Notes under the pieces: model-generated
The model's database searches: none
Told to the model about the DNA's origin: nothing
What the model saw: the letters and a program-made list of their open reading frames with translations, nothing else
Position numbers and translations under genes: made by a program
Part shown: positions 1-11,311 of the stretch, in pieces
How the letters are laid out: every line of letters begins with the position of its first letter
How positions within the stretch are numbered: the stretch's first letter is position 1
From: Ruminococcus sp.
Lineage (GTDB): Bacteria > Bacillota > Clostridia > Oscillospirales > Ruminococcaceae
Direction of reading: 5' to 3'
Assembly: GCA_017544125.1 (NCBI GenBank)
Contig: JAFYET010000038.1
Span: 1 to 11,311, forward strand
DNA length: 11,311 bases

Positions 1-80
1 AGGAAGAGGCTAAAGAGACTGCCGAGGAAACAACCGAAGAGACTAAGGAAGACGCTAAGGAAGACAAAGAGGCAGCCTAA
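1..80 (+). CDS. 3' end of an unrecognised gene with an acidic tail
   Basis: An open frame enters from the left edge and stops with TAA at 78-80. The 25 visible residues are almost only Glu, Lys, Ala, Thr and Asp (EEAKETAEET... ending KEDKEAA). Low-complexity charged tails like this occur at the C-terminus of several abundant cytosolic or ribosome-associated proteins, but nothing here identifies the family. Its transcript would run into the IS200-like element starting about 20 bases downstream. The terminator at 855-888 is on the same strand and may originally have served this gene. The reading frame itself is well supported because no other frame stays open with such biased composition. Confidence 0.6.
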   Translation, partial: EEAKETAEETTEETKEDAKEDKEAA

Positions 81-98
81 AGCCTTATAACACAATCA

Positions 99-261
99 AA
101 ACCACCACTAAAGTGGTGGTTTGCTCTGCCCCTAAAAGGGGCTATTACTGGCTTGACCCCTCAAGGGGTACCGAAAGTTTAGCACCGCATTACATTCACA
201 GGCAGCCGCTAAAGCGGCTGTTCTTTTTTTGCCTACTTGGTCTTACTACCCGTAAACGGGT
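99..261. repeat. Five TAAA-type hairpins at the tnpA-distal end
   Basis: Five perfect short hairpins follow each other: stem 99-108/113-122 with loop TAAA; 128-132/138-142 with loop TAAAA; 156-160/165-169 with loop TCAA; 203-209/214-220 with loop TAAA; and 248-252/257-261 with loop TAAA. Stem sequences differ while size and loop are kept, which suggests selection on structure. IS200/IS605 ends are normally recognised through one such hairpin per end, so five is unusual. The hairpin at 203-220 is followed by a T-rich run (221-230) and could terminate plus-strand transcription entering the element. Confidence 0.8.
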
Positions 262-700
262 CCATGAATTCTTTCAAACTCATCTGATCCTGCATATAAT
301 CTTCTTCGGTCTGATTCTTTATGTACTCTCGTATGACTTTTTCATTGCGTCCAACAGTGTCAACATAATATCCTCTGCACCAAAAATGTCGGCTTCCATA
401 CTTATATTTCAAATTTGCGTGCCTATCAAATATCATCAGTGTACTTTTGCCCTTGATATATCCCATAAACTGTGCTATACTAATATACGGTGGAATACTC
501 ACCAACATATGTATATGGTCAGGCATTGCATTTGCCTCCAGTATTTCTACGCCTTTTTGTTCACATAGCTTTCTAAGTATTTGTCCTATATCTGCTTTCA
601 GCTGTCCATATATAACCTTTCTACGGTATTTTGGTGCAAACACTATGTGATACTGACACCTATATGTCGAATGTGATAAATGCTTTATTTCGTTTTTCAT
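233..700 (-). CDS. tnpA: IS200/IS605-family Y1 HUH transposase TnpA
   Basis: The 155-residue product is a full-length small tyrosine transposase that cuts and joins single-stranded ends of its own element. The metal-binding HUH motif is visible as H62-I-H64 within PDHIHMLV. The probable catalytic tyrosine is Y126 in REYIKNQ, with the usual Gln four residues later. The N-terminal YHIVFAPKYRR stretch is also typical of the family. The start is ATG at 698-700, preceded by GGAGG (710-714) at 9-base spacing. The last ~10 codons overlap one of the TAAA-loop hairpins (248-261). The gene appears intact, so the element could be active. Its ribosome binding site may be masked by a leader sequence (706-777). 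Confidence 0.95.
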   Translation of the reverse strand: MKNEIKHLSHSTYRCQYHIVFAPKYRRKVIYGQLKADIGQILRKLCEQKGVEILEANAMPDHIHMLVSIPPYISIAQFMGYIKGKSTLMIFDRHANLKYKYGSRHFWCRGYYVDTVGRNEKVIREYIKNQTEEDYMQDQMSLKEFMDPFTGSKTK

Positions 701-705
701 TGTTT

Positions 706-777
706 ATAACCTCCGTTTGTTTTAATTTAGTAATGCGGTCGCCAAACCACTACTATTTTATCAAATTCGGAGGTTAT
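706..777 (-). promoter_or_regulatory. Ribosome-binding site of tnpA with an upstream complementary sequence
   Basis: The minus-strand sequence containing the tnpA Shine-Dalgarno (CGGAGGTTAT, 715 down to 706) has a perfect 10-base complement 52 bases upstream (777 down to 768). A transcript starting beyond 777 could fold so that the ribosome binding site is paired. Enterobacterial IS200 is known to silence tnpA with a leader inverted repeat of this kind. A possible TATAAT-like box (TAAAAT, around 753-758) would give a shorter RNA without the complement, so the structure may act mainly against read-through transcripts. Confidence 0.5.
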
Positions 778-807
778 TTTAAAGCGCTCGCTGAAGCTTT
801 TTTATGT

Positions 808-845
808 CCCCCGGTAAAACCGGGGGTTTATTTGTGCTAAAGCGC
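808..845. repeat. Hairpins at the tnpA-proximal end of the IS
   Basis: An 8-bp perfect stem (808-815/819-826) encloses AAA, or TAAAA if the inner pair is left open. A second, weaker stem with one G-T pair (834-837/842-845) encloses TAAA. They match the design of the hairpins at the other end of the element and probably form its left-end recognition structure, since tnpA reads away from them. Confidence 0.65.
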
Positions 846-854
846 CCAAACAAT

Positions 855-888
855 AAGAGGCATCACCGGTTCGGTGATACCTCTTTTT
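855..888 (+). terminator. Intrinsic terminator, plus strand
   Basis: Stem AAGAGG-x-ATCACC pairs with GGTGAT-x-CCTCTT (855-867/873-885, one internal mismatch), followed by a T run on the plus strand. No plus-strand gene ends between it and position 80, so it most plausibly belongs to the gene ending at 80, from which the IS element now separates it. Read in reverse it has only a weak T tail but might also serve the AraC gene. Confidence 0.75.
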
Positions 889-918
889 AATATGTGCGCT
901 ATGTAGATCAAGAAATTG

Positions 919-966
919 CCTTCCCTGCCAAGTGGAGGTGCCACGAAGTGGCGGAGGGGTTCTGCG
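919..966. repeat. Short GC-rich hairpin repeat of the gut-clostridial intergenic type
   Basis: The sequence contains GCCAC-GAA-GTGGC (940-952) flanked by GGAGG and GGAGGGG blocks, next to the 3' end of the AraC gene. I recall very similar GTGGCACCTCC/GTGGCGGAGGGG units scattered between genes in Ruminococcus and relatives. That is memory of the pattern, not a search. No coding role is apparent. Confidence 0.45.
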
Positions 967-983
967 CCAACAGGCGATGCGCA

Positions 984-1736
984 TCACGGCGTTTGGTGCA
1001 TACTCTTCCAGTTGACCCTGAAGTATTCCTCCCTGTACTGCTTGGGGGTAAAGCCCGTGTGCTTGCGGAAAGCCGAGATAAAATGGCTGTGGGAGCTGAA
1101 ATTGAGATAGTTGCCTATGTCAATAGAGGAATAATCGCTGTATTTGAGCATATTCTCCGCCGCCTGTATCCTGCGGGACATGATGAAGTCAGAGATAGTG
1201 ACCCCCACCTCCTGCCGGAACAGCTTTGAGAGATACTGCGCCGAAAGCCCCAGCTTGTCAGCCAGCTCAGATACCCTTATGCCGCTGTATATGTTGTCGT
1301 ATATAAGGTCAAGGCACATGAGTATGTGCTTTGAATAAGCCTCGCCCGAAGCGACCGTCTGCATACGCTTTGCGTATTCAAGAAAGACCTCCTGGTGTAT
1401 CTGCTTAAGCTCATCTTCGGTCTCACTGACATCAAGACGGTTGATGTAAATATCACTTATCGTGTATGAAGTCTCGGTGGGCATACCAGCCTCAATGCAG
1501 AAGCGTGCAATGAGCGCAATGGTAATGATAAGGTGGTATTTGATGTTTCTTATCTTGTCTTCACTGAGCTTGCCGTAGCCCTCGACCGCAAGGGGCGTGT
1601 ACAGGGCTTTAACCCGCTCGATATCACCCGCCGCAACAGCACCGTAGAATTCAAGCTCCTTCTCATACGGCGAATGGAGCTTGCCGTACTCTCTCTGTAT
1701 AAACTCACGCTGAGCCAGCTCTTTATTGATACTCAA
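984..1736 (-). CDS. AraC-family transcriptional regulator
   Basis: The 250-residue protein ends in a typical AraC/XylS DNA-binding domain. The first helix-turn-helix is near residues 154-174 (RVSELADKLGLSAQYLSKLF). The second is near 204-230 (IDIGNYLNFSSHSHFISAFRKHTG), followed by the family signature FTPKQYR. The N-terminal ~140 residues are helical and lack a recognisable cupin sugar-binding fold, as in many Firmicute AraC regulators beside sugar transporters. The start must be TTG at 1734-1736, because a TGA lies three codons upstream in frame and the next Met is residue 85; GGGAAGGG lies just upstream. It has its own promoter (1804-1832) and lies on the same strand as, and downstream of, the solute-binding protein operon, a plausible target. 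Confidence 0.92.
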   Translation of the reverse strand: MSINKELAQREFIQREYGKLHSPYEKELEFYGAVAAGDIERVKALYTPLAVEGYGKLSEDKIRNIKYHLIITIALIARFCIEAGMPTETSYTISDIYINRLDVSETEDELKQIHQEVFLEYAKRMQTVASGEAYSKHILMCLDLIYDNIYSGIRVSELADKLGLSAQYLSKLFRQEVGVTISDFIMSRRIQAAENMLKYSDYSSIDIGNYLNFSSHSHFISAFRKHTGFTPKQYREEYFRVNWKSMHQTP

Positions 1737-1803
1737 AGCATCTCACCCTTCCCGTCATTATGACTGTTTCTTTATTTTCCATAATTTAGTATGCTTTTAT
1801 GTA

Positions 1804-1832
1804 ATTATATCACATTTTAAACAATTTGTAAA
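1804..1832 (-). promoter_or_regulatory. Promoter of the AraC-family gene
   Basis: On the minus strand a -35 TTTACA (1832-1827) and a -10 TATAAT (1809-1804) are separated by 17 bases. TGA immediately before the -10 makes it an extended -10. Transcription would start near 1797, giving a leader of about 60 bases. Confidence 0.75.
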
Positions 1833-1856
1833 TATCATTTATCATATCATAATAAC

Positions 1857-1935
1857 ATTTTTGAAATATCAAACGTTTGATTTAAAAATTTCACTTATAT
1901 TTTTGATATGAAATGACACATTTTTGATATTAAAC
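1857..1935. promoter_or_regulatory. Three phased TTTTTGAWAT elements, candidate AraC-type operator
   Basis: ATTTTTGAAAT (1857-1867), TATTTTTGATAT (1899-1909, preceded by TA rather than CA) and ATTTTTGATAT (1920-1930) are direct repeats. Their TTTTTG cores start at 1858, 1900 and 1921, so the intervals are 42 and 21 bases, whole multiples of two helical turns. A 14-bp perfect palindrome, ATCAAACGTTTGAT, overlaps the first copy (1868-1881). The block lies directly upstream of the AraC promoter's -35 box. AraC-family proteins bind direct repeats about 21 bp apart, so autoregulation is a reasonable inference. The surrounding AT-richness lowers confidence. Confidence 0.45.
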
Positions 1936-1951
1936 AGACTCGAAAAGGGGC

Positions 1952-1976
1952 TTTGGGGGAGCATCGCTCCCCCAAA
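1952..1976. repeat. Perfect 11-bp hairpin with ATC loop
   Basis: TTTGGGGGAGC (1952-1962), loop ATC, then the exact complement (1966-1976). Neither side has a T run long enough for a clear terminator. The 3-base loop and strong stem match the hairpins found in the other intergenic blocks of this window. Confidence 0.7.
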
Positions 1977-2018
1977 AATCTCTTACCTCTTATATCTGAT
2001 CTCTTCCCACTAAAAGGA

Positions 2019-2054
2019 TACCGCACAGCCTGCCGGAAGGTAGACTGTGCGGTA
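2019..2054 (-). terminator. Probable terminator of the solute-binding protein operon
   Basis: TACCGCACAG (2019-2028) pairs with CTGTGCGGTA (2045-2054), and an inner stem closes a four-base loop. On the minus strand the stem is followed by a short T stretch (CCTTTT). It lies about 75 bases after the stop codon at 2129. Plus-strand sequence also has a short T run, so direction is not certain. Confidence 0.6.
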
Positions 2055-2128
2055 CCATGCTTTTGCCGTGACCGGCTAATTGAAGGAAGCTTTATGAAGT
2101 CTCTAAAAGCAAATTTAATAATATAGAA

Positions 2129-3550
2129 TTACTTCTTGATAGATTCCTGCTCCTTGTTGATGTAGTAGTCAAGAGCCTTCTCGTTCTCCTCTACCAGCTC
2201 TGTCCATGTGTGGGTAGCTGCGGGGTTCATTGTGCCCTTGATTATGTTGTCTGTCAGGTTGGAGATATCCTGTGAAACGCCCTGAGCGAACTCGAATACG
2301 GGAGCCTCAGCTGCCATCTTGTATATCTCGTCTCTCATGTCGAGCATTTCCTGTGTCCAGCCATAGTCCTCAGCGAGCTGATCAAGAGTTATCTGATGAG
2401 CTGCCTCGTCGATCTCTGCATATCTTGTGCAGTCGAGCCAAGCTGCAACGCCCTCGGGGTTCGAGCAGCCCTTAGCAAGACAGAATGCGTGTATTCTCGA
2501 AGGAATATACTGCTTGTCAGAATCAGCTGCGCAGGGAACGGGAACGAACATGACCTCACCGTCAGCGATGTTGCCGTAAGGCTCAGTTGTGGAAGGTGCA
2601 TCCTCAATGCCCCAGAAACCGATAGGATAGAAGAGTGTCAGACCAGATGCAAGACCTGTACCGAATACATCGCCTCTTACCTTCCAGTCATGCTGATCCT
2701 TCGGGTAAACTACCTCGTTCTTCTGAAGCTCATACATCATGTCCTCAGCCTTTGCAAGCTCGGGAGCCTTGATGTTGTTAACTATCTTACCGTCCTGCAT
2801 ATCGATGAGCGGCATACCTGTTGACTCGAGAAGTGCATTCTCGTAGTACCAGCCGTCGAGTGCATACTTGTCTTCCTCAGCGTTTGTGAAGTCTATGCAC
2901 ATCTCAGACATTGTATCCCAGTTCCACTTGCCCTCTTTCCAGAGCTGTGCGGGATCGTCCATACCGATATCTTCGATTATCTTCTTGTTGTATACCCAGA
3001 TGTAGCTGGGGTCAACTCTTACAACGCCCACATAGTGCTTGCCGTCGAAGATGAACTTGTCAGAAGCGGTCTTCATATCAGACCAGAGGGGTGTTGAGAA
3101 GTCGATGTAATCCTCGATAGGCTCTATCATTTCCTTGATAGCGCACTTGGGGAATACGTTCATGTCATCAGCGCCGATAAAGTCGGGCGATGAGTTTGCC
3201 ATTACGTTCTTTGCAAGGTCATCAAAGTAGTTTTCCCATGTTGTCTGCATCCACTCGATCTTGCCGTTGTACTTTGTCTGGAAAAGTGCAAGGTCAACAC
3301 CGATGTCCTTGTCAGCACTTGCTGTGGGGTTGATATCCCAGTGGGAGAACCACTTGATCGTTGTGTTATCGAGCTTTCTGGGCTCAGTTATGCTGTCGGC
3401 AAGACGCTGAACTATCTGCTGCTGATCTTCCTTGAGCTCCTTCTCGGGCATTGAGGAAGAATCGCTTGAACCGGAATTGCCGCAGGCTGCTATGCTCAGT
3501 GCAGAGCTGAGAGCTACCGCACCGGCAAGAACTCTTTTAAATGCTTTCAT
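2129..3550 (-). CDS. ABC transporter solute-binding lipoprotein (sugar-type, family 1)
   Basis: The 473-residue protein begins with a lipoprotein signal: basic MKAFKR, a hydrophobic run, and lipobox SIAAC with Cys23 as the lipidated residue. A Ser-rich linker follows. The rest matches the extracellular solute-binding type 1 pattern of carbohydrate transporters in length and in segments such as FQTKYNGKIEW near the start and IPSRIHAFCLAKG near the hinge. It would sit on the outside of the membrane and deliver ligand to a permease. No permease or ATPase gene lies in the window, so the transporter partner must be elsewhere. The start ATG has GGAGG at 7-base spacing. It is 15 bases behind the gene at 3566-4450, so the two are almost certainly co-transcribed. 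The substrate cannot be read from the sequence. Confidence 0.88.
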   Translation of the reverse strand: MKAFKRVLAGAVALSSALSIAACGNSGSSDSSSMPEKELKEDQQQIVQRLADSITEPRKLDNTTIKWFSHWDINPTASADKDIGVDLALFQTKYNGKIEWMQTTWENYFDDLAKNVMANSSPDFIGADDMNVFPKCAIKEMIEPIEDYIDFSTPLWSDMKTASDKFIFDGKHYVGVVRVDPSYIWVYNKKIIEDIGMDDPAQLWKEGKWNWDTMSEMCIDFTNAEEDKYALDGWYYENALLESTGMPLIDMQDGKIVNNIKAPELAKAEDMMYELQKNEVVYPKDQHDWKVRGDVFGTGLASGLTLFYPIGFWGIEDAPSTTEPYGNIADGEVMFVPVPCAADSDKQYIPSRIHAFCLAKGCSNPEGVAAWLDCTRYAEIDEAAHQITLDQLAEDYGWTQEMLDMRDEIYKMAAEAPVFEFAQGVSQDISNLTDNIIKGTMNPAATHTWTELVEENEKALDYYINKEQESIKK

Positions 3551-3565
3551 CTATGTTCCTCCGAA

Positions 3566-4450
3566 TTACTTTCTCTTCTTGCTTGCGACCACGCCTGCAG
3601 CTGCCATAGCCATAGCTGCGAGTATAGCGTTGGAAGCAACACCTGTCTGAGTATTGGTCTGTGCAGCACCTGTTGTAGTTGTTGTGCCCGAGCCAGTACT
3701 TGTTGTGTTGGTGTCAGTTGTTGTATCGCCGGCATTCTTAGTATCGTCGTCGGTCTTCTTATCTTCCTTCTTATCTTCCTTCTTGTCTTCCTTCTTGTCA
3801 TCCTTCTTCTCGTCGTCCTTGCTGTCTTCAGCGGGAGCTTCACCTGCAAGCACGCCGTTGGGGTCAAGGTCGATAGTCATGGAGAGAACGCCGCCGTTGA
3901 ATGCGCCTTCCTCTTCCCAGCCAGCAACCTCAGGACGAGCTGCTTTCTTAACTTCGCCTGTCTTCTCATCTACCTCGTCCTGGGGACGGATATGGATCCT
4001 GAAGCCGCCCTCGGGGTCCTCAGTAGCCTCTGTGATAGCATTAACAGAGTCAAGAACTGTCTCTGTGCCGTCTTCTGCAACAAACTTAGCGTCTGTGATC
4101 TTTACGTTGTAGGGATAGCCGTCCTTAGGCATGTTGAGTACCATAACGCCCATATCGCCGAGTGTACCCTTGCCCTCGAGCTTTGTGTCAGCCATAGGTG
4201 CGCCGATAGAGAACTCAACGTTGATCTTGCCCTCTTCGTTGATGCCTATCCACTCACTCTGGTTCCACTGCCAGGTCTGGTTCATGAAGAAGGCCATAGC
4301 GCCTACGCTGTAGTAGGTCTTGTTCATGGCCTCATCGTTCTCATCAGGGTGTGCGACCGTAGCAAGATCAGTTGCTGCTGCTGCGCTCATGATCATTGTC
4401 ATTGAGAGAGCTGCTGCTGCCATACCGGCAAAAATTTTCCTCATTTTCAT
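3566..4450 (-). CDS. Secreted, probably cell-wall-anchored protein of unknown function
   Basis: I do not recognise the family. The 294-residue product has a signal peptide (KMRK, then an Ala/Met-rich hydrophobic run, probable cleavage after AAAA around residue 26) and a Trp-containing globular region to about residue 205. A charged linker of Lys/Asp repeats (about 211-235) and a Thr/Gly-rich stretch (241-262) follow. The C-terminus has NTQTG (266-270), a ~20-residue hydrophobic segment and KKRK, the layout of a sortase sorting signal, though NTQTG is not the canonical LPXTG. The start is ATG at 4450, because GGAGG (4463-4459) is 8 bases upstream; the longer frame from TTG at 4465 would place the start inside that site. 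It is the first gene of a two-gene operon with the solute-binding lipoprotein. Confidence 0.8.
   Translation of the reverse strand: MKMRKIFAGMAAAALSMTMIMSAAAATDLATVAHPDENDEAMNKTYYSVGAMAFFMNQTWQWNQSEWIGINEEGKINVEFSIGAPMADTKLEGKGTLGDMGVMVLNMPKDGYPYNVKITDAKFVAEDGTETVLDSVNAITEATEDPEGGFRIHIRPQDEVDEKTGEVKKAARPEVAGWEEEGAFNGGVLSMTIDLDPNGVLAGEAPAEDSKDDEKKDDKKEDKKEDKKEDKKTDDDTKNAGDTTTDTNTTSTGSGTTTTTGAAQTNTQTGVASNAILAAMAMAAAGVVASKKRK
3755..3814. repeat. 12-bp tandem repeat coding the Lys/Asp linker
   Basis: About five imperfect copies of a 12-base unit (CTTCTTATCTTC and variants) encode the KEDK repeats of the secreted protein. Differences between copies are mostly synonymous or swap acidic residues. 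Copy number could vary between strains and change the length of the wall-spanning linker. Confidence 0.8.
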
Positions 4451-4477
4451 TGTTTTTTCCTCCAATTATCATTTATT

Positions 4478-4523
4478 CTCCGCCAGCATAAGCGGAGTAG
4501 CCGTTGTTAACGATTACATTATA
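4478..4523 (-). promoter_or_regulatory. Leader hairpin and possible -10 of the secreted-protein operon
   Basis: A TATAAT box is present on the minus strand (4523-4518), but no good -35 lies 17 bases upstream, so the promoter call is weak and may need an activator. The leader contains CTCCGC/GCGGAG (4478-4483/4492-4497), a hairpin ending about 15 bases before the ribosome binding site. The rest of 4524-4713 is AT-rich and holds no gene I can support. Confidence 0.35.
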
Positions 4524-4713
4524 CATCAAACCATCACGTTAGTATATAAAAAATATGACAACCGTATCACTAATTTAATCATACAATGATATAAATTTGT
4601 ATTAAGATTTTAACATACCTAATTATTTGTATACATTTACAGTTTTTGACATCTGCTTTTGTGCATATTTATACCTCGTCAACAATTATCCGTTCTACCG
4701 CCTGCGCCCGCTC

Positions 4714-4742
4714 TTGACTTATGTTCTTTTATATAGTATAAT
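4714..4742 (+). promoter_or_regulatory. Strong promoter of a candidate non-coding RNA
   Basis: TTGACT (4714-4719), a 17-base spacer and TATAAT (4737-4742) form a near-consensus housekeeping promoter on the plus strand. The expected start is near 4749. A weaker second candidate, TTGACA at 4646-4651 with TATACC at 4670-4675 (18-base spacer), lies upstream. No protein-coding frame follows. Confidence 0.8.
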
Positions 4743-4840
4743 ATGGTCAGACAAGCGTTTGCGCACCCTTTGTGATAACATACTTTTATCTTTTGGAATA
4801 AGCGTCTCCGAAAGGGGACCTTATTATTGATATGGTGCTG

Positions 4841-4863
4841 CAAGCCTGTTTTCAGATAGCTTG
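4841..4863 (+). repeat. RNA hairpin motif, copy 1
   Basis: CAAGC-CTG-TTTT-CAG-ATA-GCTTG: two stacked helices with an asymmetric ATA bulge. It matches the copy at 5199-5219 except mainly in the terminal loop and the outermost pair, which is what a conserved structural element would show. Confidence 0.65.
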
Positions 4864-5198
4864 TCAAAAACGGTACACATAGCGTTTGCTGCACTTTATG
4901 ACAGCCTCCTTTTAAAACACTTCCTATGTTTTTGTGCAGCCAAGTCCGCTGTCAGTCTGCTTATGTGTATCGGTGAACTTCGACAGGCGTAGCTCTTCTC
5001 GGGTTGGGAAAACTGCTAAATCACGGCTTACTTTTATCGCTTTCCGGCAAGCCCCGGCTTGCACCTGATGTAAGGGCTGTATGCCGTAAAATAGTACCTG
5101 TCGGCACCCTCGGTAAGCGTTTTAAGTGTATGTATTATCTGCCCCTGATAGGGCGATGACTTACTTTTAAATCACCATGTTATTTATTGCTGCACTTA

Positions 5199-5219
5199 AA
5201 GCCTGTCATCAGATAGCTT
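5199..5219 (+). repeat. RNA hairpin motif, copy 2
   Basis: AAGC-CTG-TCAT-CAG-ATA-GCTT, the same fold as at 4841-4863 and 357 bases downstream. The preceding TTGCTGCACTT (5187-5197) also repeats a segment at 4886-4896. Confidence 0.65.
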
Positions 5220-5238
5220 ATCGAACCTAACTACCCTG

Positions 5239-5268
5239 CCGCTGCGGTTTCGCAGCGGTTTACTTTTA
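5239..5268 (+). terminator. Intrinsic terminator of the candidate ncRNA
   Basis: A perfect 8-bp GC-rich stem, CCGCTGCG/CGCAGCGG (5239-5246/5251-5258), with loop GTTT is followed by TTTACTTTT on the plus strand. No plus-strand protein gene ends nearby. Confidence 0.85.
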
Positions 5269-5270
5269 GA

Positions 5271-5305
5271 TGTAAGATGTAAGAGTTAAGAGATAAGAAG
5301 CAAGA
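5271..5305. repeat. Five tandem heptamers between convergent terminators
   Basis: TGTAAGA, TGTAAGA, GTTAAGA, GATAAGA and AGCAAGA follow without gaps; all end in AAGA. They fill the space between the ncRNA terminator and the toxin-gene terminator. On the minus strand they supply the T-rich tail of the latter. Confidence 0.75.
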
Positions 5306-5331
5306 AGCCCTCGTCGCAATTGACGGGGGCT
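5306..5331 (-). terminator. Terminator of the toxin-antitoxin operon
   Basis: A 10-bp stem (5306-5315/5322-5331, one G-T pair) with loop GCAATT begins 8 bases after the toxin stop codon on the minus strand. It is followed there by the T-rich stretch TCTTGCTTCTT. Confidence 0.65.
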
Positions 5332-5338
5332 ATCGTTA

Positions 5339-5746
5339 TTATAGTTTTTCTATCAGCTGTGAGGGTGTCAGCACGCTGACGGTGCTGTTTTCAAAATGGC
5401 GTACATTTCTTGTGATCATGTGGTCTGCCCTTATCCTTTTTGCCTGCGATATGTGCAGCGCATCTTCATAATCATCGGAGAATGAATCGGCAGCGTCTTT
5501 AAGGTCACTCTCTCTGAGATCAACCACCTTGAAGATCATCGTTATCTGCTCTACCAGCTGCTGTATCCTCTGCGGGTCAAGCTCCTTTCGCATGATGTAT
5601 ACAATGTTCGGGATAGACAAAGCTGAGATATAGCCGTCTGCCTTACCCGTCTGGCAAATATCCCATACAGCCGACGAGTCATCGAAAAAGCCCTCTCTGT
5701 CATATAATACATCAAGTATCACATTGGTATCAATCAGGATCTTCAT
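5339..5746 (-). CDS. PIN-domain toxin (VapC-like, PIN_3 type)
   Basis: The 135-residue protein is a complete PIN domain, the metal-dependent RNase fold of VapC-type toxins. Acidic and polar active-site positions are visible: D6 in ILIDTNVILDVL, probably E55, D95 in DYEDALHISQA, and N114 in ITRNVRHF. The EDALH and TRN segments match the PIN_3 subgroup. The start ATG lies inside the 3' end of the antitoxin gene (17-base overlap), the usual arrangement for coupled translation. It is expected to cleave RNA in the cytosol when the antitoxin is degraded; the target RNA is unknown. The closest alternative is a house-cleaning PIN nuclease, but the paired antitoxin argues against that. Confidence 0.9.
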   Translation of the reverse strand: MKILIDTNVILDVLYDREGFFDDSSAVWDICQTGKADGYISALSIPNIVYIMRKELDPQRIQQLVEQITMIFKVVDLRESDLKDAADSFSDDYEDALHISQAKRIRADHMITRNVRHFENSTVSVLTPSQLIEKL

Positions 5747-5963
5747 ACTTTTTCAGCCTTTCCGCACGCATTTCATCAAGGTCATAATCATTTTTCAGAA
5801 CACCCCGCAGCTTTTGAGAAAGAAGCTCCACATTCTTTTCTTTCGATATAAGCCTTGCCGCTTCCTTGCCGTTCTTTAATATGATTATCTCCTCGCCCTC
5901 CTGCACTGCTTGCAGATAGCGCCCGAAATTGTTCTGAAACTCTGTTGCATTTGCTATCATCAT
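5730..5963 (-). CDS. Phd/YefM-family antitoxin
   Basis: The 77-residue protein has the Phd/YefM N-terminal DNA-binding fold: NATEFQNNFGRYLQAVQEGEEIIILKNGK followed by EAARLIS. The charged C-terminal part (about 45-77) would wrap the toxin. It should neutralise the adjacent PIN toxin and repress its own promoter. The first of two adjacent ATGs (5963-5961) is preferred because AGGAGG lies 9 bases upstream. The promoter contains palindromes that suit binding of such a dimeric repressor. Phd-type antitoxins are commonly paired with PIN or Doc toxins, which supports the assignment. Confidence 0.92.
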   Translation of the reverse strand: MMIANATEFQNNFGRYLQAVQEGEEIIILKNGKEAARLISKEKNVELLSQKLRGVLKNDYDLDEMRAERLKKYEDPD

Positions 5964-5982
5964 AATAATGCACCTCCTGCTA

Positions 5983-6025
5983 TTTTAGCTAATTTCATTA
6001 TACCACATTTTAGCTAAAATGTCAA
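5983..6025 (-). promoter_or_regulatory. Toxin-antitoxin promoter with operator palindromes
   Basis: On the minus strand TTGACA (6025-6020) and TATAAT (6002-5997) are exactly 17 bases apart. The spacer is largely occupied by an 18-bp perfect palindrome, ACATTTTAGCTAAAATGT (6005-6022), and a second TTTTAGCTAA site lies just after the -10 (5983-5992). Binding by the antitoxin there would block RNA polymerase, the usual autorepression of such operons. Confidence 0.85.
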
Positions 6026-6070
6026 GCCGACTCCAGTATTATTCTTTATTCATTTTTTCTCCTCTCCCCC

Positions 6071-6099
6071 TTGACATATAGAAAAAAACATGGTATAAT
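6071..6099 (+). promoter_or_regulatory. Consensus promoter of the metal-export operon
   Basis: TTGACA (6071-6076), 17 bases, TATAAT (6094-6099). A perfect consensus promoter normally needs tight repression, which fits the operator-like palindrome immediately downstream. Confidence 0.85.
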
Positions 6100-6111
6100 T
6101 AAATCAAACAA

Positions 6112-6127
6112 ATGAACAACTATTCAT
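6112..6127. promoter_or_regulatory. Candidate ArsR/SmtB-family metal-sensor operator
   Basis: ATGAACA-AC-TATTCAT is an imperfect inverted repeat (one mismatch) about 13 bases after the -10. It resembles the ATGAACA-nn-TGTTCAT operators of SmtB/CzrA-type zinc and cadmium sensors. No ArsR-family gene is in the window, so the repressor would be encoded elsewhere. Confidence 0.6.
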
Positions 6128-6154
6128 ATGTTCGTCAGAAAAGGAGAATGTTCA

Positions 6155-6373
6155 ATGAAAAAGACATATGCTATCGAGGTAGACTGCGCAAACTGTGCAA
6201 ACAAAATGCAGGAGGCTGCAAAGAAGACCGAAGGCGTAAAAGACGCTGTCGTTAACTTTATGGCGCTCAAAATGAAGGTCGAGTTTGAAGAGGGCGCTGA
6301 CGAAAAGGCTGTCATGAAAAACGTGCTAAAAGCCTGCCGCAAGGTCGAGCCCGACTGCGAGATAGAATTCTGA
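6155..6373 (+). CDS. Free-standing HMA-domain metal-binding protein
   Basis: The 72-residue protein is one heavy-metal-associated domain. The metal-binding motif is C11-A-N-C14 within EVDCANCANK, the DCANCA form typical of N-terminal domains of Zn/Cd-exporting ATPases. The alternating hydrophobic pattern fits the ferredoxin-like fold. The start is ATG at 6155, with AAGGAG (6141-6146) 8 bases upstream; an in-frame ATG at 6128 has no ribosome binding site and overlaps the operator. It probably captures metal in the cytosol and passes it to the ATPase encoded 362 bp downstream, which lacks this domain. A copper chaperone is the alternative, but the motif context favours zinc or cadmium. Confidence 0.88.
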   Translation: MKKTYAIEVDCANCANKMQEAAKKTEGVKDAVVNFMALKMKVEFEEGADEKAVMKNVLKACRKVEPDCEIEF

Positions 6374-6397
6374 ACGCAGGCTGTTTAGTCCGCATCG

Positions 6398-6660
6398 TCT
6401 GCTTCGCAGAGGTATCGCCTCGCATCGCTCGGCTCTTGCCGCCTGTCGGCGGCAGCCGCAAAGCGGTCTCAGCGGCTGCGCCGCCTCGACATTTGCGGCG
6501 GGGCGGCGAACAATTCGTTCTTTAGAGGGCTGTTGCAATCAAAACATTGGGTTGTTTTTATTACTTGTTCGCCGCCTTGCGCCTACGGCGTTGGAGCTCT
6601 GCTCCAAACCTCGCTGGGGCTCTGCCCCCGTCCCCGCAAGCCCTTTTTGAGGAAAAGGGC
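6398..6660. repeat. Array of short GC-rich hairpins between the HMA and ATPase genes
   Basis: Eight short perfect hairpins occupy this 362-bp gap, mostly with 3-base loops: TCTGC-TTC (6398-6410), TGCCGCC-TGTC (6437-6454), CCGC-AAA (6456-6466), GCGGC-TGC (6472-6484), CGCC-TAC (6580-6590), TTGGAGC-TCT (6591-6607), GGGGC-TCT (6616-6628) and GCCCTTTT-TGAGG (6640-6660). One frame stays open across part of it into the ATPase, but composition and lack of a start signal argue against coding. It looks like several interspersed intergenic repeats inserted next to each other. Confidence 0.75.
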
Positions 6661-6735
6661 CCCTCCCAAAACCTTCTTGTGTTTTTATTCCCCCACAAAT
6701 CCCAATTACCCATTCATCTCAAAGGAAGTACCACC

Positions 6736-8616
6736 ATGACCCGAAAACAGAAAAAAGTCCTTACACGAATAATAATCGCCCTTGTGCTGCTTGTAGCGGT
6801 GTCGGTCGTTGACCGTATCGCAGAGCCTGCGTGGTATGTGCAGCTTTGCCTGTATCTGCTGCCATATTTCGTCATAGGGTATGATATACTGCTCAAAGCG
6901 CTTAAAGGCATACTCAACGGGCAGGTGCTCGATGAGAATTTCCTTATGGCGGTGGCTACCGTGGGGGCAATGGCTCTCGGTGAATACAGAGAGGGCTCGG
7001 CGGTAATGCTCTTTTACCAGATAGGCGAGCTTTTTCAGAGCATAGCCGTGGGCAAGAGCCGCAAAAACATCGCCGCCCTTATGGATATACGCCCCGACTG
7101 TGCCTTTGTCGAAACGGAAAACGGCGTTGAAGAAGCCGACCCCGATGATGTGGAGGTCGGCAGTATAATCGTCATAAAGCCCGGCGAGAAGATACCCATC
7201 GACGGCGTTATCATCGAGGGCGATACTACACTCAACACCGCAGCCCTTACAGGCGAGAGTATGCCTGCTGATGCAGTGTGCGGCGACAGCGTGCAGAGCG
7301 GCAGCATAAACCTTACCGCCCTTATCAGAGTGCGCACGACAAAGCCCTTCGGCGAATCGACCGTGTCAAAGATACTCGAGCTTGTCGAAAACGCAAGCGA
7401 GCGCAAGTCACGTTCTGAAAACTTCATAACCAAATTCGCCCGCTACTATACCCCCGCTGTGTGCATATCAGCACTTTTGCTCGGCGTGGGCGTGCCGCTT
7501 GTAAGGCTTGCCATGGGCAGCAGTGCAATGTTTTCCGTGTGGGTGTCAAGGGCGCTTACCTTTCTTGTTATCAGCTGCCCCTGTGCGCTGGTGATAAGCA
7601 TACCCCTCGGGTTCTTTGCAGCTATCGGCGGTGCGGGCAGTCAGGGCATACTCATCAAGGGCTCAAATTATATCGAGACGCTTTCAAAAACAAAATGCGT
7701 GGTCTTTGACAAAACAGGCACAATGACAAAGGGCGTGTTCGAGGTTGTCGGTATCCACCACAGCGCTATCGAAGAAGAAAAGCTCTTAGAGCTTGCAGCA
7801 CTTGCCGAGCAGAGCTCTAACCACCCCATAGCCAAGAGCATAGTCAAGGCGTGCAAGTCACTCCCCGACAGTAAAAGGCTCGGTGCAGTGACGGAGTTTG
7901 CGGGCGAGGGTGTCTGCGCCGTTATCGACGGGCGTGAGACGTTCGTGGGCAACGATAAGCTCATGAAGCGTGCGGGCGCTGACTTTACCGAATGCCACAG
8001 CGCAGGCACGGTGATACACATAGCCCGTGGCAGCGAATATATGGGGCATATAGTTGTTGCCGATGTGCTAAAGCCCTCATCAAAGCAGGCAATAGAAAAG
8101 CTCAAAGCCGCAGGCGTTACCCAGACGGTGATGCTCACAGGCGACGGCGAGCGTGCAGCCGAGGCAGCCGCCAAGGAGCTTGGCATAGATAAGCTCTATT
8201 CCCGCCTTATGCCCGCCGACAAGGTAGCAAGGGTAGAGGAGCTGCTGAAAGATAAGCGCAGCGGCACGTCACTTGCCTTTGTGGGCGACGGCATAAACGA
8301 TGCCCCCGTGCTCACCCGTGCCGATATAGGTATAGCAATGGGCGCTCTCGGCTCAGATGCGGCGATAGAGGCAGCCGATGTTGTGCTCATGGACGATGAC
8401 CCGCTCAAGATCGCCGGTGCGATATCCCTTTCAAAGCGCTGTATGCGTATTGTCTACGAAAACATCGTCTTCGCCATAGGCGTAAAGCTCATATGCCTGC
8501 TGCTCGGCGCTTTGGGTATAGCAAATATGTGGATAGCCATTTTCGCCGATGTCGGCGTTATGGTGATAGCTGTATTAAACGCAATACGGCTGCTCAGGCG
8601 TGCTTCGCACGCATAA
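6736..8616 (+). CDS. P1B-2-type heavy-metal-exporting ATPase (ZntA/CadA-like)
   Basis: The 626-residue protein has the P1B ATPase landmarks in order: actuator TGES (172-175), membrane CPC (281-283), phosphorylation DKTGT (325-329), the HP of the nucleotide domain (363-364), TGD (468-470) and hinge GDGIND (517-522). Lys584 and Asp605 (FADVGV) in the last two membrane segments match the Zn2+/Cd2+/Pb2+ subgroup; copper ATPases have different residues there. It exports metal from the cytosol at the cost of ATP. The N-terminus goes straight into the first membrane helix, so no HMA domain is fused; the separate 72-aa protein upstream probably replaces it. The ATG at 6736 is chosen because AAAGGAAG (6721-6728) precedes it; the 63 extra upstream codons are repeat sequence. 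Confidence 0.95.
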   Translation: MTRKQKKVLTRIIIALVLLVAVSVVDRIAEPAWYVQLCLYLLPYFVIGYDILLKALKGILNGQVLDENFLMAVATVGAMALGEYREGSAVMLFYQIGELFQSIAVGKSRKNIAALMDIRPDCAFVETENGVEEADPDDVEVGSIIVIKPGEKIPIDGVIIEGDTTLNTAALTGESMPADAVCGDSVQSGSINLTALIRVRTTKPFGESTVSKILELVENASERKSRSENFITKFARYYTPAVCISALLLGVGVPLVRLAMGSSAMFSVWVSRALTFLVISCPCALVISIPLGFFAAIGGAGSQGILIKGSNYIETLSKTKCVVFDKTGTMTKGVFEVVGIHHSAIEEEKLLELAALAEQSSNHPIAKSIVKACKSLPDSKRLGAVTEFAGEGVCAVIDGRETFVGNDKLMKRAGADFTECHSAGTVIHIARGSEYMGHIVVADVLKPSSKQAIEKLKAAGVTQTVMLTGDGERAAEAAAKELGIDKLYSRLMPADKVARVEELLKDKRSGTSLAFVGDGINDAPVLTRADIGIAMGALGSDAAIEAADVVLMDDDPLKIAGAISLSKRCMRIVYENIVFAIGVKLICLLLGALGIANMWIAIFADVGVMVIAVLNAIRLLRRASHA

Positions 8617-8677
8617 TGCATAATTATGGTGTCTGCTTGCAGCGGACGGATGCCCTTTCGGGCTTATGATCTTACGA

Positions 8678-8688
8678 TTTTAGCTAAA
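8678..8688. promoter_or_regulatory. Stray copy of the toxin-antitoxin operator core
   Basis: TTTTAGCTAAA repeats the centre of the antitoxin operator at 6005-6022. It lies downstream of the ATPase with no promoter in reach, so any role is unclear. Confidence 0.35.
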
Positions 8689-8724
8689 GAAAGCATTTAA
8701 GCAAACGCTCCATTTGAAAATGAT

Positions 8725-8766
8725 TGACCCCGAGGGAATTCAGAATTCCCCCGGGGTCAGCTTTTT
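8725..8766 (+). terminator. Intrinsic terminator of the metal-export operon
   Basis: A 16-pair stem with a single mismatch (8725-8740/8744-8759) and loop CAG is followed by GCTTTTTA on the plus strand. It lies between convergent genes, and the short T stretch on its other side may let it also stop transcription of the 8812-10515 gene. Confidence 0.85.
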
Positions 8767-8811
8767 ATGATCCATGCGGCGAAGCCGCATACCTCAATTA
8801 TGCATTATAGA

Positions 8812-10515
8812 TCATTTCGCCTTCAGGCTCTTCACCGCACTGTATGAGCTGTAATACTTCGTGCCGCCAACTACCTTGTAGCAGCGTATCTTCACATAAT
8901 AGGTCTTGCCCGATGTCAGCTTTGAAAGTTTCTTGCTGACTGTCGCCGTGCCTGTTACCGTGGCGCTCTTCTTTGTGGCAAAGGTCTTGTCCGTCGAGTA
9001 AACGAGCTGGTAGCCCTCAGCCGATGCGCTCTTACCCCACTTGACATTTATGACTTTAGCCTTGGTGCTTGTAAGGCTGCTTATCTTGGTCTTTTTGGGA
9101 ACTATGCCGAAGGTTATTTTCTTGCTGCCCTTGAAGTTGCCTGTGCCCTTGACGGTAACGGTCGCCTTGCCAACTGCCTTGTTTGATGAGAAGCTGACAG
9201 TGTACTCGCTGCCGAGCCCCAGCGTTCTTGAAAGCATCGTTACCTTAACGGCAGGGGTTATGCCCTTGCCTGTGTATTCGTAGCTGCCCTTTACGCCCGA
9301 GAGGGTAGCACCGCTCAGGTCGGCAGGGGTTATGGTGAATGCCACCTTAACGCCGCCCGTGTATGCGCCCTTGCCCCTTACTACGGCGTAGGCTGTTCCT
9401 GCATTGACGTTGCCCGTGTAGGTAACTGTGTAGTCTGTTCCCTTTGTCAGCACCTTTGTGCCGTCCTTTACCGTGACAGTGGGTGTCTTGCCCTTGCCGT
9501 CGTAGACAAAGCTCTTTGTGCCGAGGGTTATCCTCAGCTTTGTTGCGTCTTTGAGCTTTGGTATTTCCTGTATCAGCACCCTGCCGCAGAGGGTGCAGGT
9601 GTATGACATACGCCCCTTCTCTTCAAGGGTCGCCGCCTTTATCACCTTGCCGCTGCCGAACTTGTGCACAGCGCTCTTTGGCACTACCGTGTCTACCTCC
9701 AGCCCGCAGCCCGAGCAGGTGTAGTGCTTTAGCCCCGCATGGGTGCAGTCAGCTTCCTTTATCACCTCGCCCCTGCCGAAGTAGTGGTTGTCGGTGGCAG
9801 GCACTTCCTCTGTCCTTGTGCCTGAGCAGACCTCGCAGGTGTATGTCTTTACACCCACCTTGCCGCAGGTAGGCTGGGTCGTTATCCTGCCCTCGTCCCA
9901 TACGTGGTCGTTTGTGCGGTCGATCTCTTCCTCCTTGGTGGTGCCGCAGAGGGTGCAGGTGTATGTGGTTATGCCCTTGTCCTTGCAGTCGGGCGCTTTT
10001 GTCACCACGCCCTCGCCCCACTCGTGGGCATCGGGGTCTATCGCCTTTTCAACATCAAAGGTCGAGCCGCAGAGGGTGCAGGTATAAGTGGTTATACCCT
10101 TGCTCATGCAGGTGGGCTCAAGTGTCACTACCCCCTCATCGAGCTGGTGTGAAAGCGCAGGTATCGTCTCGGAATATGAGCGCCCGCATATCTTGCAGGT
10201 ATATACCACCTTGCCCTCAACGCCGCAGGCAGCCTGCGTCACAACCTCGCCCACACCGTATTTGTGCGATGTGGTCATGGGTATCGTTTCGGTGTAGCTT
10301 ACACCGCACTCGCAGGTGTATGTACGCACGCCCGTCTCTGAGCAGTTGGCTTCCTTTGTCACAACGCCTATGAACGAGTGGTAATGCTCCTGCTCTGAAT
10401 CGCCGCCCTCGCCAACGGGCAGTGAGTCATCATCAAGCGCAGCCGCACCCATCACCTGTGTAAGCGCAAGCGCCAAAGCGCAGGCAAGCGCCGGTATTTT
10501 CCTTTTCAGTTTCAA
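8812..10515 (-). CDS. Secreted multidomain protein: His/Cys repeats, Ig-like (MBG) and Fn3-like domains
   Basis: The 567-residue protein starts with a signal peptide (KLKRK, hydrophobic run, cleavage near residue 26). Seven ~40-residue repeats follow (about 46-320), each with a His, then Cys, YTC and CG. Next come two Ig-like domains of the MBG kind (about 326-398 and 399-473, with YDGKGKTP and YEYTGKGITP) and a C-terminal Fn3-like domain (about 476-567, GYQLVYSTDK...YYVKIRCY). Such assemblies are common in surface or secreted proteins of gut clostridia and are thought to mediate adhesion or polysaccharide contact. No catalytic domain or wall anchor is visible. The start is TTG at 10515: GGAAGGTGA lies 7 bases upstream, and the in-frame TGA within that site excludes a longer protein. 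It is the second gene of an operon with the membrane protein at 10545-10922. Confidence 0.88.
   Translation of the reverse strand: MKLKRKIPALACALALALTQVMGAAALDDDSLPVGEGGDSEQEHYHSFIGVVTKEANCSETGVRTYTCECGVSYTETIPMTTSHKYGVGEVVTQAACGVEGKVVYTCKICGRSYSETIPALSHQLDEGVVTLEPTCMSKGITTYTCTLCGSTFDVEKAIDPDAHEWGEGVVTKAPDCKDKGITTYTCTLCGTTKEEEIDRTNDHVWDEGRITTQPTCGKVGVKTYTCEVCSGTRTEEVPATDNHYFGRGEVIKEADCTHAGLKHYTCSGCGLEVDTVVPKSAVHKFGSGKVIKAATLEEKGRMSYTCTLCGRVLIQEIPKLKDATKLRITLGTKSFVYDGKGKTPTVTVKDGTKVLTKGTDYTVTYTGNVNAGTAYAVVRGKGAYTGGVKVAFTITPADLSGATLSGVKGSYEYTGKGITPAVKVTMLSRTLGLGSEYTVSFSSNKAVGKATVTVKGTGNFKGSKKITFGIVPKKTKISSLTSTKAKVINVKWGKSASAEGYQLVYSTDKTFATKKSATVTGTATVSKKLSKLTSGKTYYVKIRCYKVVGGTKYYSSYSAVKSLKAK
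9559..10380 (-). repeat. Seven tandem coding repeats with an H-x12-C-x9-C-x2-C pattern
   Basis: His residues at 46, 84, 123, 164, 204, 244 and 284 begin the units. In units 2-6 the spacing to the three Cys residues is exactly 13, 10 and 3. Unit 1 is shorter (CEC, and one residue less before the first Cys). Unit 7 has Leu instead of the first Cys. The DNA period is about 120 bases. Confidence 0.9.
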
Positions 10516-10544
10516 TTTATATCACCTTCCAAACTATTACACGT

Positions 10545-10922
10545 TTATTCGGGGCTTTCGCCCTCGCTGCTTTTCTTCTTTTGTGTGTAAGCCGCCTCGA
10601 TGCCCTTTACCACCGCTATTACCATCAGTTCGATGAAGCAGTAGCCCGCCGTAACGACAATGACCGCCACTTCCCCAAGACCGCCATGCATATCGGTATT
10701 GTAATGCCACACAGCACAAAGAGCAATAAGCCCCCAGGCTATGAGCCAGAACATCTCATCACGCTTTATCAAAAGCGCCGCTATCGCAAATATCATAATA
10801 CTCGCCGCTGCGTGAGCAATGCTGCCGATGGGCATAGCGCTTTGCTGCGTCGAGGGCGAATATATCAGCACATACCAAAAGAAAACTATTGCGGTATGCA
10901 CTGCCTTTCGCAGAATATCCAT
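10545..10922 (-). CDS. Small membrane protein, function unknown
   Basis: I do not recognise this 125-residue protein. It has four hydrophobic segments, at about residues 7-22, 33-52, 56-73 and 83-105, and a charged, Glu/Ser/Lys-rich cytosolic tail (QKKKSSEGESPE). No catalytic or metal-binding motif stands out. The start ATG follows GGAGA at a suitable distance. It is the promoter-proximal gene of a pair: its stop codon is 29 bases before the start of the secreted His/Cys-repeat protein, so the two are probably made together. A role in localising that protein is possible but unsupported by sequence. Confidence 0.75.
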   Translation of the reverse strand: MDILRKAVHTAIVFFWYVLIYSPSTQQSAMPIGSIAHAAASIMIFAIAALLIKRDEMFWLIAWGLIALCAVWHYNTDMHGGLGEVAVIVVTAGYCFIELMVIAVVKGIEAAYTQKKKSSEGESPE

Positions 10923-10936
10923 AAGGTAATCTCCCT

Positions 10937-10983
10937 ATATAAGCTGTAACTTATATTATACCCCTTTTCACGCCCCCTGTCAA
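10937..10983 (-). promoter_or_regulatory. Consensus promoter with an inverted repeat over the -10
   Basis: On the minus strand TTGACA (10983-10978), a G-rich 17-base spacer and TATAAT (10960-10955) precede the membrane-protein gene by 33 bases. ATATAAG (10937-10943) and CTTATAT (10950-10956) form a 7-6-7 inverted repeat that overlaps the -10 and could be a repressor site. Confidence 0.8.
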
Positions 10984-11015
10984 TCGGCACTTTAGCCATA
11001 AATCGCCCTGCCCGT

Positions 11016-11045
11016 TTGACATCGCACGCCCTCATATGCTATACT
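11016..11045 (+). promoter_or_regulatory. Promoter of the HAD hydrolase gene
   Basis: TTGACA (11016-11021) and TATACT (11040-11045) with an 18-base spacer, 29 bases before the start codon. It is divergent from the promoter at 10955-10983, with 32 bases between the two -35 boxes. Confidence 0.7.
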
Positions 11046-11074
11046 GATACTATCACCAAACCAAGGAGATAGCT

Positions 11075-11311
11075 ATGGATATAACAAAGATAAAAGCCGC
11101 CATTTTCGACCTTGACGGCACGCTGCTCGACTCGGCTTATGTGTGGGCGGAGGTTGACAGGCAGTTCCTCGGCAGGCGGGGGCTTGATATACCCGATGAT
11201 TACTGCAAGAGCATCTGCACTATGAACTTAGAGCAGGCAGCAGTCTACACCAAAAAGCGCTTCTCGCTGCCTGACAGCACAGATGAGATAATCGAGGAAT
11301 GGAAGTCGGGC
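11075..11311 (+). CDS. HAD-superfamily hydrolase, beta-phosphoglucomutase-like, 5' part
   Basis: Only the first 79 residues are in the window. FDLDGTLLDS (11-20) is HAD motif I; Asp12 would be the nucleophile and Asp14 the general acid/base. The following helical region (AYVWAEVDRQFL... and EQAAVYTKKRF) fits the small alpha-helical cap inserted after motif I in phosphoglucomutase- and phosphatase-like members. The enzyme would hydrolyse or transfer a phosphate on a small cytosolic metabolite; the substrate cannot be told from this part. The ATG at 11075 follows AAGGAG at 6-base spacing. Confidence 0.9.
   Translation, partial: MDITKIKAAIFDLDGTLLDSAYVWAEVDRQFLGRRGLDIPDDYCKSICTMNLEQAAVYTKKRFSLPDSTDEIIEEWKSG

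Follow-up and report, generated by a model that had tools for sequence, protein, structure and literature searches.

A Candidate RNA Gene in Ruminococcus

What kind of gene lies between a promoter and a terminator, with little room for a protein, at positions 4714-5268 of an 11,311-nucleotide (nt) stretch of Ruminococcus sp. DNA (contig JAFYET010000038.1, positions 1 to 11,311; hereafter the window)? The original prediction, made from the letters alone, proposed a structured RNA gene of about 520 nt on the plus strand. Checks against Rfam, homologues, covariation and open reading frames all favored this interpretation, and the region appears to hold a genuine bacterial RNA gene, apparently undescribed so far and presumably expressed. 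As judged by comparison across genomes, its product is a tandem array of one pseudoknotted module that is linked to, and co-inherited with, the gene of a single protein of ~670 amino acids (aa).

The signals that frame the gene were described correctly. A sigma-70 promoter, TTGACT-17-TATAAT, is present at 4714-4742 on the plus strand with 11 of 12 consensus matches, and its -10 element ends 7 nt 5′ of the first base of the closing stem (P1). The predicted RNA of ~520 nt, defined through homologues and covariation, spans 4750-5268 (+) and contains four modules followed by a terminator recognizable from sequence at 5238-5268 (+). The latter consists of a stem-loop of 9 bp (5238-5259) and then TTTACTTTTA; the interrupted T-run makes it less than ideal. 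As had been claimed, the region lacks a usable open reading frame (ORF): among frames of at least 40 aa overlapping the RNA, the longest are 67 aa (+), beginning at 4627 upstream of the RNA, and 71 aa (-). A conserved protein frame, which would have spoken against an RNA gene, was looked for as well; none spans the RNA, and module lengths are free to vary among homologues. The plus strand folds at -165.3 kcal/mol (z -4.3) and outperforms all of 100 shuffled controls. Much the same holds for the minus strand (z -3.9, again better than its shuffles), so that energy alone is weak evidence and cannot assign the strand; the homologues do.

The proposal that no known RNA accounts for the region agrees with relaxed searches of all Rfam families, which gave no match within the RNA at E values up to 5 (window) or 10 (4700-5300). 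ARAGORN found no tRNA or tmRNA in the window. Two sub-threshold Rfam matches at homologues were taken as chance: suhB at L004 (21.1 bits, E 0.96), where it overlaps the 3′ end of the RNA together with the terminator, and, in the search of L002-L004, Fluoride within a coding region. No description of the RNA was found in literature titles and abstracts, and passage searches in the main text of PMC11109978, PMC8632094 and PMC2864571 turned up none of the terms Ruminococc-, tellur-, TerD or TROVE. "Undescribed" thus applies to the literature covered and to Rfam 15, since supplements, subscription papers and bioRxiv lay outside the search.

Four Copies of One Pseudoknotted Module

The original prediction drew individual helices and included neither the repeat structure nor the pseudoknots. 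Alignment of diverged copies reveals a module of ~100 nt, present four times in the window at ~100-125 nt each. P1 closes each module (consensus 5′ ...AGCGUU, 3′ AGAUAGCUU...) and usually encloses an inner stem, P2. Within P2, a 6-nt strand followed by NU-(A/C)CUUUUA pairs with a strand located between P2 and P1, forming a 6-bp pseudoknot. The C-NU-(A/C)CUUUUA loop is near-invariant; over the loop and its left neighbor, the bases C, U, C, U, U and U show no variation at two-decimal precision.

A covariance model, R1, was built with P1 and P2 only. Fifteen modules were cut by hand and 12 entered the model, with W_M3, L2_M3 and L4_M2 omitted as divergent or over-long. Across the first thirteen sources, modules matched by R1 measure 79-194 nt. 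All four modules of the window lie on the plus strand. Module 1 (4750-4865; R1 71.8 bits) is closed by P1 4750-4756/4859-4865, with a P2 core at 4763-4767/4834-4838 and a pseudoknot at 4774-4779/4848-4853 (5 of 6 pairs) adjoining the loop motif AUACUUUUA (4780-4788). The previously noted GAAA-capped stem at 4797-4825 is indeed present (6+6 pairs, one C bulged). It is an ornament of this module; L002 repeats it in module 1 and L003 in modules 1 and 2, with a changed stem sequence. Module 2 (4873-4971; 67.9 bits) contains P1 4873-4883/4959-4970, in which one base is bulged, P2 4888-4894/4934-4940, and the pseudoknot 4900-4905/4948-4953 with loop motif CUCCUUUUA at 4906-4914. Module 3 (4981-5103) is divergent, matches R1 weakly (10.8 bits, E 0.93) and was left out of model building. 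The long-range pairing 4981-4987/5097-5103 (CGACAGG/CCTGTCG) drawn in the original prediction is exact and constitutes its P1; its pseudoknot joins 5022-5027 to 5083-5088 (5 of 6 pairs), next to the loop motif UUACUUUUA at 5028-5036. Module 4 (5111-5223; 84.8 bits) has P1 5111-5118/5216-5223, P2 5122-5128/5193-5199 and the pseudoknot 5155-5160/5205-5210, with the same loop motif UUACUUUUA at 5161-5169.

Linkage to a Single Protein Gene

Homologues were sought, as the prediction had advised, by searching the DNA of 149 related genomes, which returned diverged copies in three others. The closest homologue of the window RNA, L036, is 66.7% identical, and R1 finds modules in 9 of 297 family genomes. 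No match to the window RNA was obtained by blastn against 50,697 phage records, nor did one exact pattern match in IMG/VR (0 matches).

At L032, L033, L034, L035, L037, L041, L042 and L043, the RNA immediately follows a ~670-aa protein gene on the same strand; at L038 and L039 it immediately precedes the gene, and at L040 it is ~150 nt from a contig end. L043 was reached by a protein search of viral contigs, and its modules were found afterwards by R1. A protein-alignment scan of named genomes gave 80 loci (80 of 83 recovered) in Ruminococcus, other Oscillospiraceae, Lachnospiraceae, Erysipelotrichaceae/Solobacterium and others, including Sarcina sp. DSM 11001. At E 0.05, R1 detects 112 modules at 59 of these 80 loci, all on the strand of the gene and within 700 nt 5′ or 900 nt 3′ of it. 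They lie downstream at 31 loci (one to five modules) and upstream at 28 (25 of them single-module). With a pattern descriptor independent of R1, sense matches numbered 102 beside the gene and 4 elsewhere, and antisense matches numbered 7. Its relaxed form matched in sense at 70 of 80 loci and in antisense at 6 of 80, covering 12 of the 21 loci missed by R1; both descriptors demand a perfect pseudoknot and are therefore uninformative on covariation. These locus counts are not independent because some named records are contigs already represented by another locus (L044 and L042, for example) or are near-identical (L064/L097, L063/L065).

The smallest form of the RNA is a single module of ~105 nt. 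Sarcina sp. DSM 11001 (L108) carries one module, scoring 35.4 bits at the locus. It was found in the smaller locus search and is missed when its own genome is searched at E 0.01, which makes L108 the one genome without a match at that threshold among eight searched via loci. Small modules without P2 were seen by eye at two Solobacterium loci, L088 and L093.

Covariation and Transcription Signals

Because R1 lacks the pseudoknot pairs, it cannot force their pairing, whereas P1 and P2 are fitted by the model. Pairing of the pseudoknot reaches 98.6% over the first 12 modules, and two-sided changes occur in five of its six pairs. Across the named loci, all six pairs are kept in 99 of 108 distinct rows (from the 112 R1 matches) through about twenty different sequences, among them GAUGAC/GUCAUC, GAUAAC/GUUAUC, UGUGAC/GUCACA and GGCAGC/GCUGCC. 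The paired share is 96.1% for P1, 92.4% for P2 and 98.4% for the pseudoknot. The whole structure is 95.7% paired, compared with 68.3% in shuffles and 29.5-49.3% with slid partners, and two-sided changes number 660 versus 184.5; these rows are not independent events, since they are related and a few (L044, L074) went into R1. The covariation anticipated for a structured RNA is thus borne out.

Downstream-type clusters frequently carry their own promoter: in 24 of 31, a promoter with at least 9 of 12 consensus matches stops 5-12 nt short of the first base of P1, in most cases 5-8 nt short. The same criterion is satisfied at 1.1% of random positions and at 7 of 28 upstream-type loci. In several Lachnospiraceae, a T-run begins within ~2 nt after P1; this stem may therefore itself terminate an RNA of ~105 nt.

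Co-Inheritance and Free-Standing Copies

A protein search of the 297 family genomes returned the same nine genomes as the RNA (E <1e-190) plus one weak fragment with stops. These nine pair RNA with protein whatever their order, and exactly one ~670-aa protein gene was present in 10 of 10 RNA-bearing genomes examined. The window RNA is itself a free-standing copy with its own promoter. No copy of the protein gene occurs in the stretches examined around it or around L036, L138 and L142; in the genome of the window, the gene is at G000:C303, with four modules adjoining.

An RNA acting in trans should be present elsewhere in the genome when a gene locus lacks it. The test covered two R1-negative loci, L050 and L068, where flanks are full and R1 and both descriptors are blank. 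In both genomes, RNA was found on other contigs, with TTGACA-17-TATAAT or TTGACG-17-TATAAT just 5′ and no protein gene within the stretch. As for other R1-negative loci, a similar small element upstream of the gene at L079 and a variant module at L112 were seen by eye, and L080 has a weak match to the first descriptor only.

Two further observations concern the arrangement of copies. One genome holds an extra single module (L144, G660:C30:12642-12745) on a contig other than that of its gene-linked cluster, and no ~670-aa protein gene is found in the L144 stretch. In the genome of L040, RNA and protein gene are on different contigs and may have been parted by an insertion: inspection by eye shows one and the same intergenic repeat behind the protein gene in L053 and ahead of the RNA in L040.

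The Protein Partner

The predicted structure of the ~670-aa protein (predicted local distance difference test score 92.5) joins a TerD domain (457-619) to a helical domain. Compared as a whole, this helical domain has its best structural matches in Ro60/TROVE proteins. The linkage of the RNA to one protein family is clear, and the assignment of that protein to the Ro60 type rests on structure prediction. Foldseek matches to alpha-toxins were set aside as meaningless (TM-scores 0.10-0.20).

Sequence searches lend no support to a Ro60-like identity. Profiles give no confirmation of it and no significant similarity, including profile A4, whose 56 proteins comprise nine taken from loci plus 47 of the 120 listed among 459 homologues; alignment A7 was made without L052, which has a stop in the chosen range. 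Seven family proteins gave no Pfam family over cut-off, no TROVE (PF05731) match up to E 1 and no vWA model match. Canonical TROVE (PF05731) occurs in 2 of 148 family genomes and is absent from that of the window. The MXAN_6230/SCO0854 family (NF041916) and TerD proteins differ from the partner, the match being far below the family cut-off and confined to the TerD part; a literature search with the locus tags MXAN_6230 and SCO0854 returned no paper.

Among distant relatives, R1 up to E 2 found no modules beside four protein homologues, and homologues on a Niallia plasmid and in a Xanthomonas phage had no adjoining Rfam RNA up to E 0.1. In two distant phage relatives, RNA candidates resembling YrlA (L132 2315-2378 and L133 4373-4440) score below the Rfam cut-off and lie beside uncharacterized PHROG 33734 phage genes. 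In one of these phages, RcXuper, a permuted tmRNA (RF04321, 108 bits; ARAGORN tmRNA*) lies at L132 1888-2190 (+), upstream of the distant Ro60-like/TerD homologue.

A Y RNA-Like Partner or Another Kind of RNA?

Bacterial Ro60 (Rsr) and Y RNA genes lie beside or near each other, and Y RNA covers or tethers the Ro60 ring. The RNA described here resembles Y RNA (YrlA, RF02553) in its position beside or near a single-copy protein gene, in a P1 formed from the module ends, and in the predicted likeness of its partner to Ro60, the fold that makes Y RNA the nearest working model. It differs from YrlA in having a pseudoknot core and one to five tandem modules, no YrlA match up to E 10 in 4700-5300 and no tRNA-like part (ARAGORN, Rfam). 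The protein, in turn, has a predicted TerD domain where Ro60 has vWA. The best reading, standing on structure prediction and gene order, is a Ro60/Y-RNA-like way of working: the window RNA is probably a free-standing, trans-acting, multi-site partner of the Ro60-like/TerD protein. Each module would be one binding site, giving up to four sites on one RNA. The RNA would dock on the helical, ring-like domain and control the access of other RNAs to the ring, or tether it, thereby determining the set of RNAs that the protein handles. The TerD domain may serve as a sensor of a small ligand; passages of PMC7824862 and PMC7159879 propose that TerD domains sense nucleotide-like or similar signals.

A second reading, carrying a smaller yet appreciable probability, is a ribonucleoprotein of a new class. 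Here, a multivalent pseudoknot array would string together several TROVE-like/TerD proteins, with one to five modules per lineage and free copies in trans, and TerD would couple a nucleotide-like signal. Such an RNA would be neither a homologue of Y RNA nor limited to its roles.

It is unlikely that the RNA is instead a cis-acting leader or attenuator of the protein gene (for autoregulation or as a riboswitch), its multi-module or free copies being decoys or titrators. The 28 of 59 loci with a module 5′ of the gene suit this account, as do the several Lachnospiraceae in which P1 and its nearby T-run are followed by the matched coding region 37-130 nt further on. A leader or riboswitch should, however, always be 5′ of the gene it controls, and at 31 of 59 loci the module is 3′, preceded in most cases (24 of 31) by a promoter of its own. 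The window, L036, L138 and L142, with no protein gene in the stretch examined, and the nine family genomes, which pair RNA and protein in either order, also oppose it. A ribonucleoprotein is favored over a leader because one protein is paired with the RNA, which sits on either side of the gene or in trans, has separate promoters and comprises one to five modules.

Still less probable is the RNA antitoxin of a type III-like toxin-antitoxin pair, in which tandem pseudoknots would neutralize the protein. ToxIN has a tandem pseudoknot RNA beside one gene and a terminator-like element between the two; tandem pseudoknots likewise adjoin one gene here, and some one-module loci have a terminator-like element in that position. 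The present modules, by contrast, are diverged and 79-194 nt long rather than short near-identical repeats, free copies exist away from the gene, and the ~670-aa protein with its predicted TerD and helical domains matches no known type III toxin family (Pfam, seven proteins; PADLOC, no match for the two tested). An RNA-only particle of the ROOL/GOLLD/OLE kind, a large, ornate, self-assembling RNA, is the least credible account: it fits the size and long structured nature of the RNA, its rumen and gut kin, its repeated pseudoknots and a GNRA-capped hairpin that might make tertiary contacts, but no Rfam model of any family matches, the RNA consists of modular repeats tied to one co-occurring protein, and one-module forms of ~105 nt exist.

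Genomic Neighborhood of the Window RNA

Convergent to the RNA, the minus strand encodes a PIN-domain protein (5339-5746) and a Phd/YefM antitoxin (5730-5963), likely a type II toxin-antitoxin pair. These genes were rejected as RNA partners because L036, the closest homologue, has other neighbors; the pair is not among the ORFs beside it. Also on the minus strand are an NPXTG-anchored surface protein (NF033846; 3566-4465) and, at 233-700, an apparent IS200-type transposase, beside a weak STnc490 match (711-828, E 0.03).

Implications

Few large bacterial RNAs combine strong covariation with no known function. In the present case, function is directly testable because there is a single co-inherited protein partner, a minimal form of ~105 nt and a strain-collection organism, Sarcina sp. 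DSM 11001. The RNA-protein pair points to an unrecognized RNA-protein machine of gut and rumen bacteria. If the protein is Ro60-like, the Ro60/Y-RNA world would be widened to pseudoknotted, multi-site RNAs, and the pair would offer a simple bacterial model for the gating of a ring protein by RNA.
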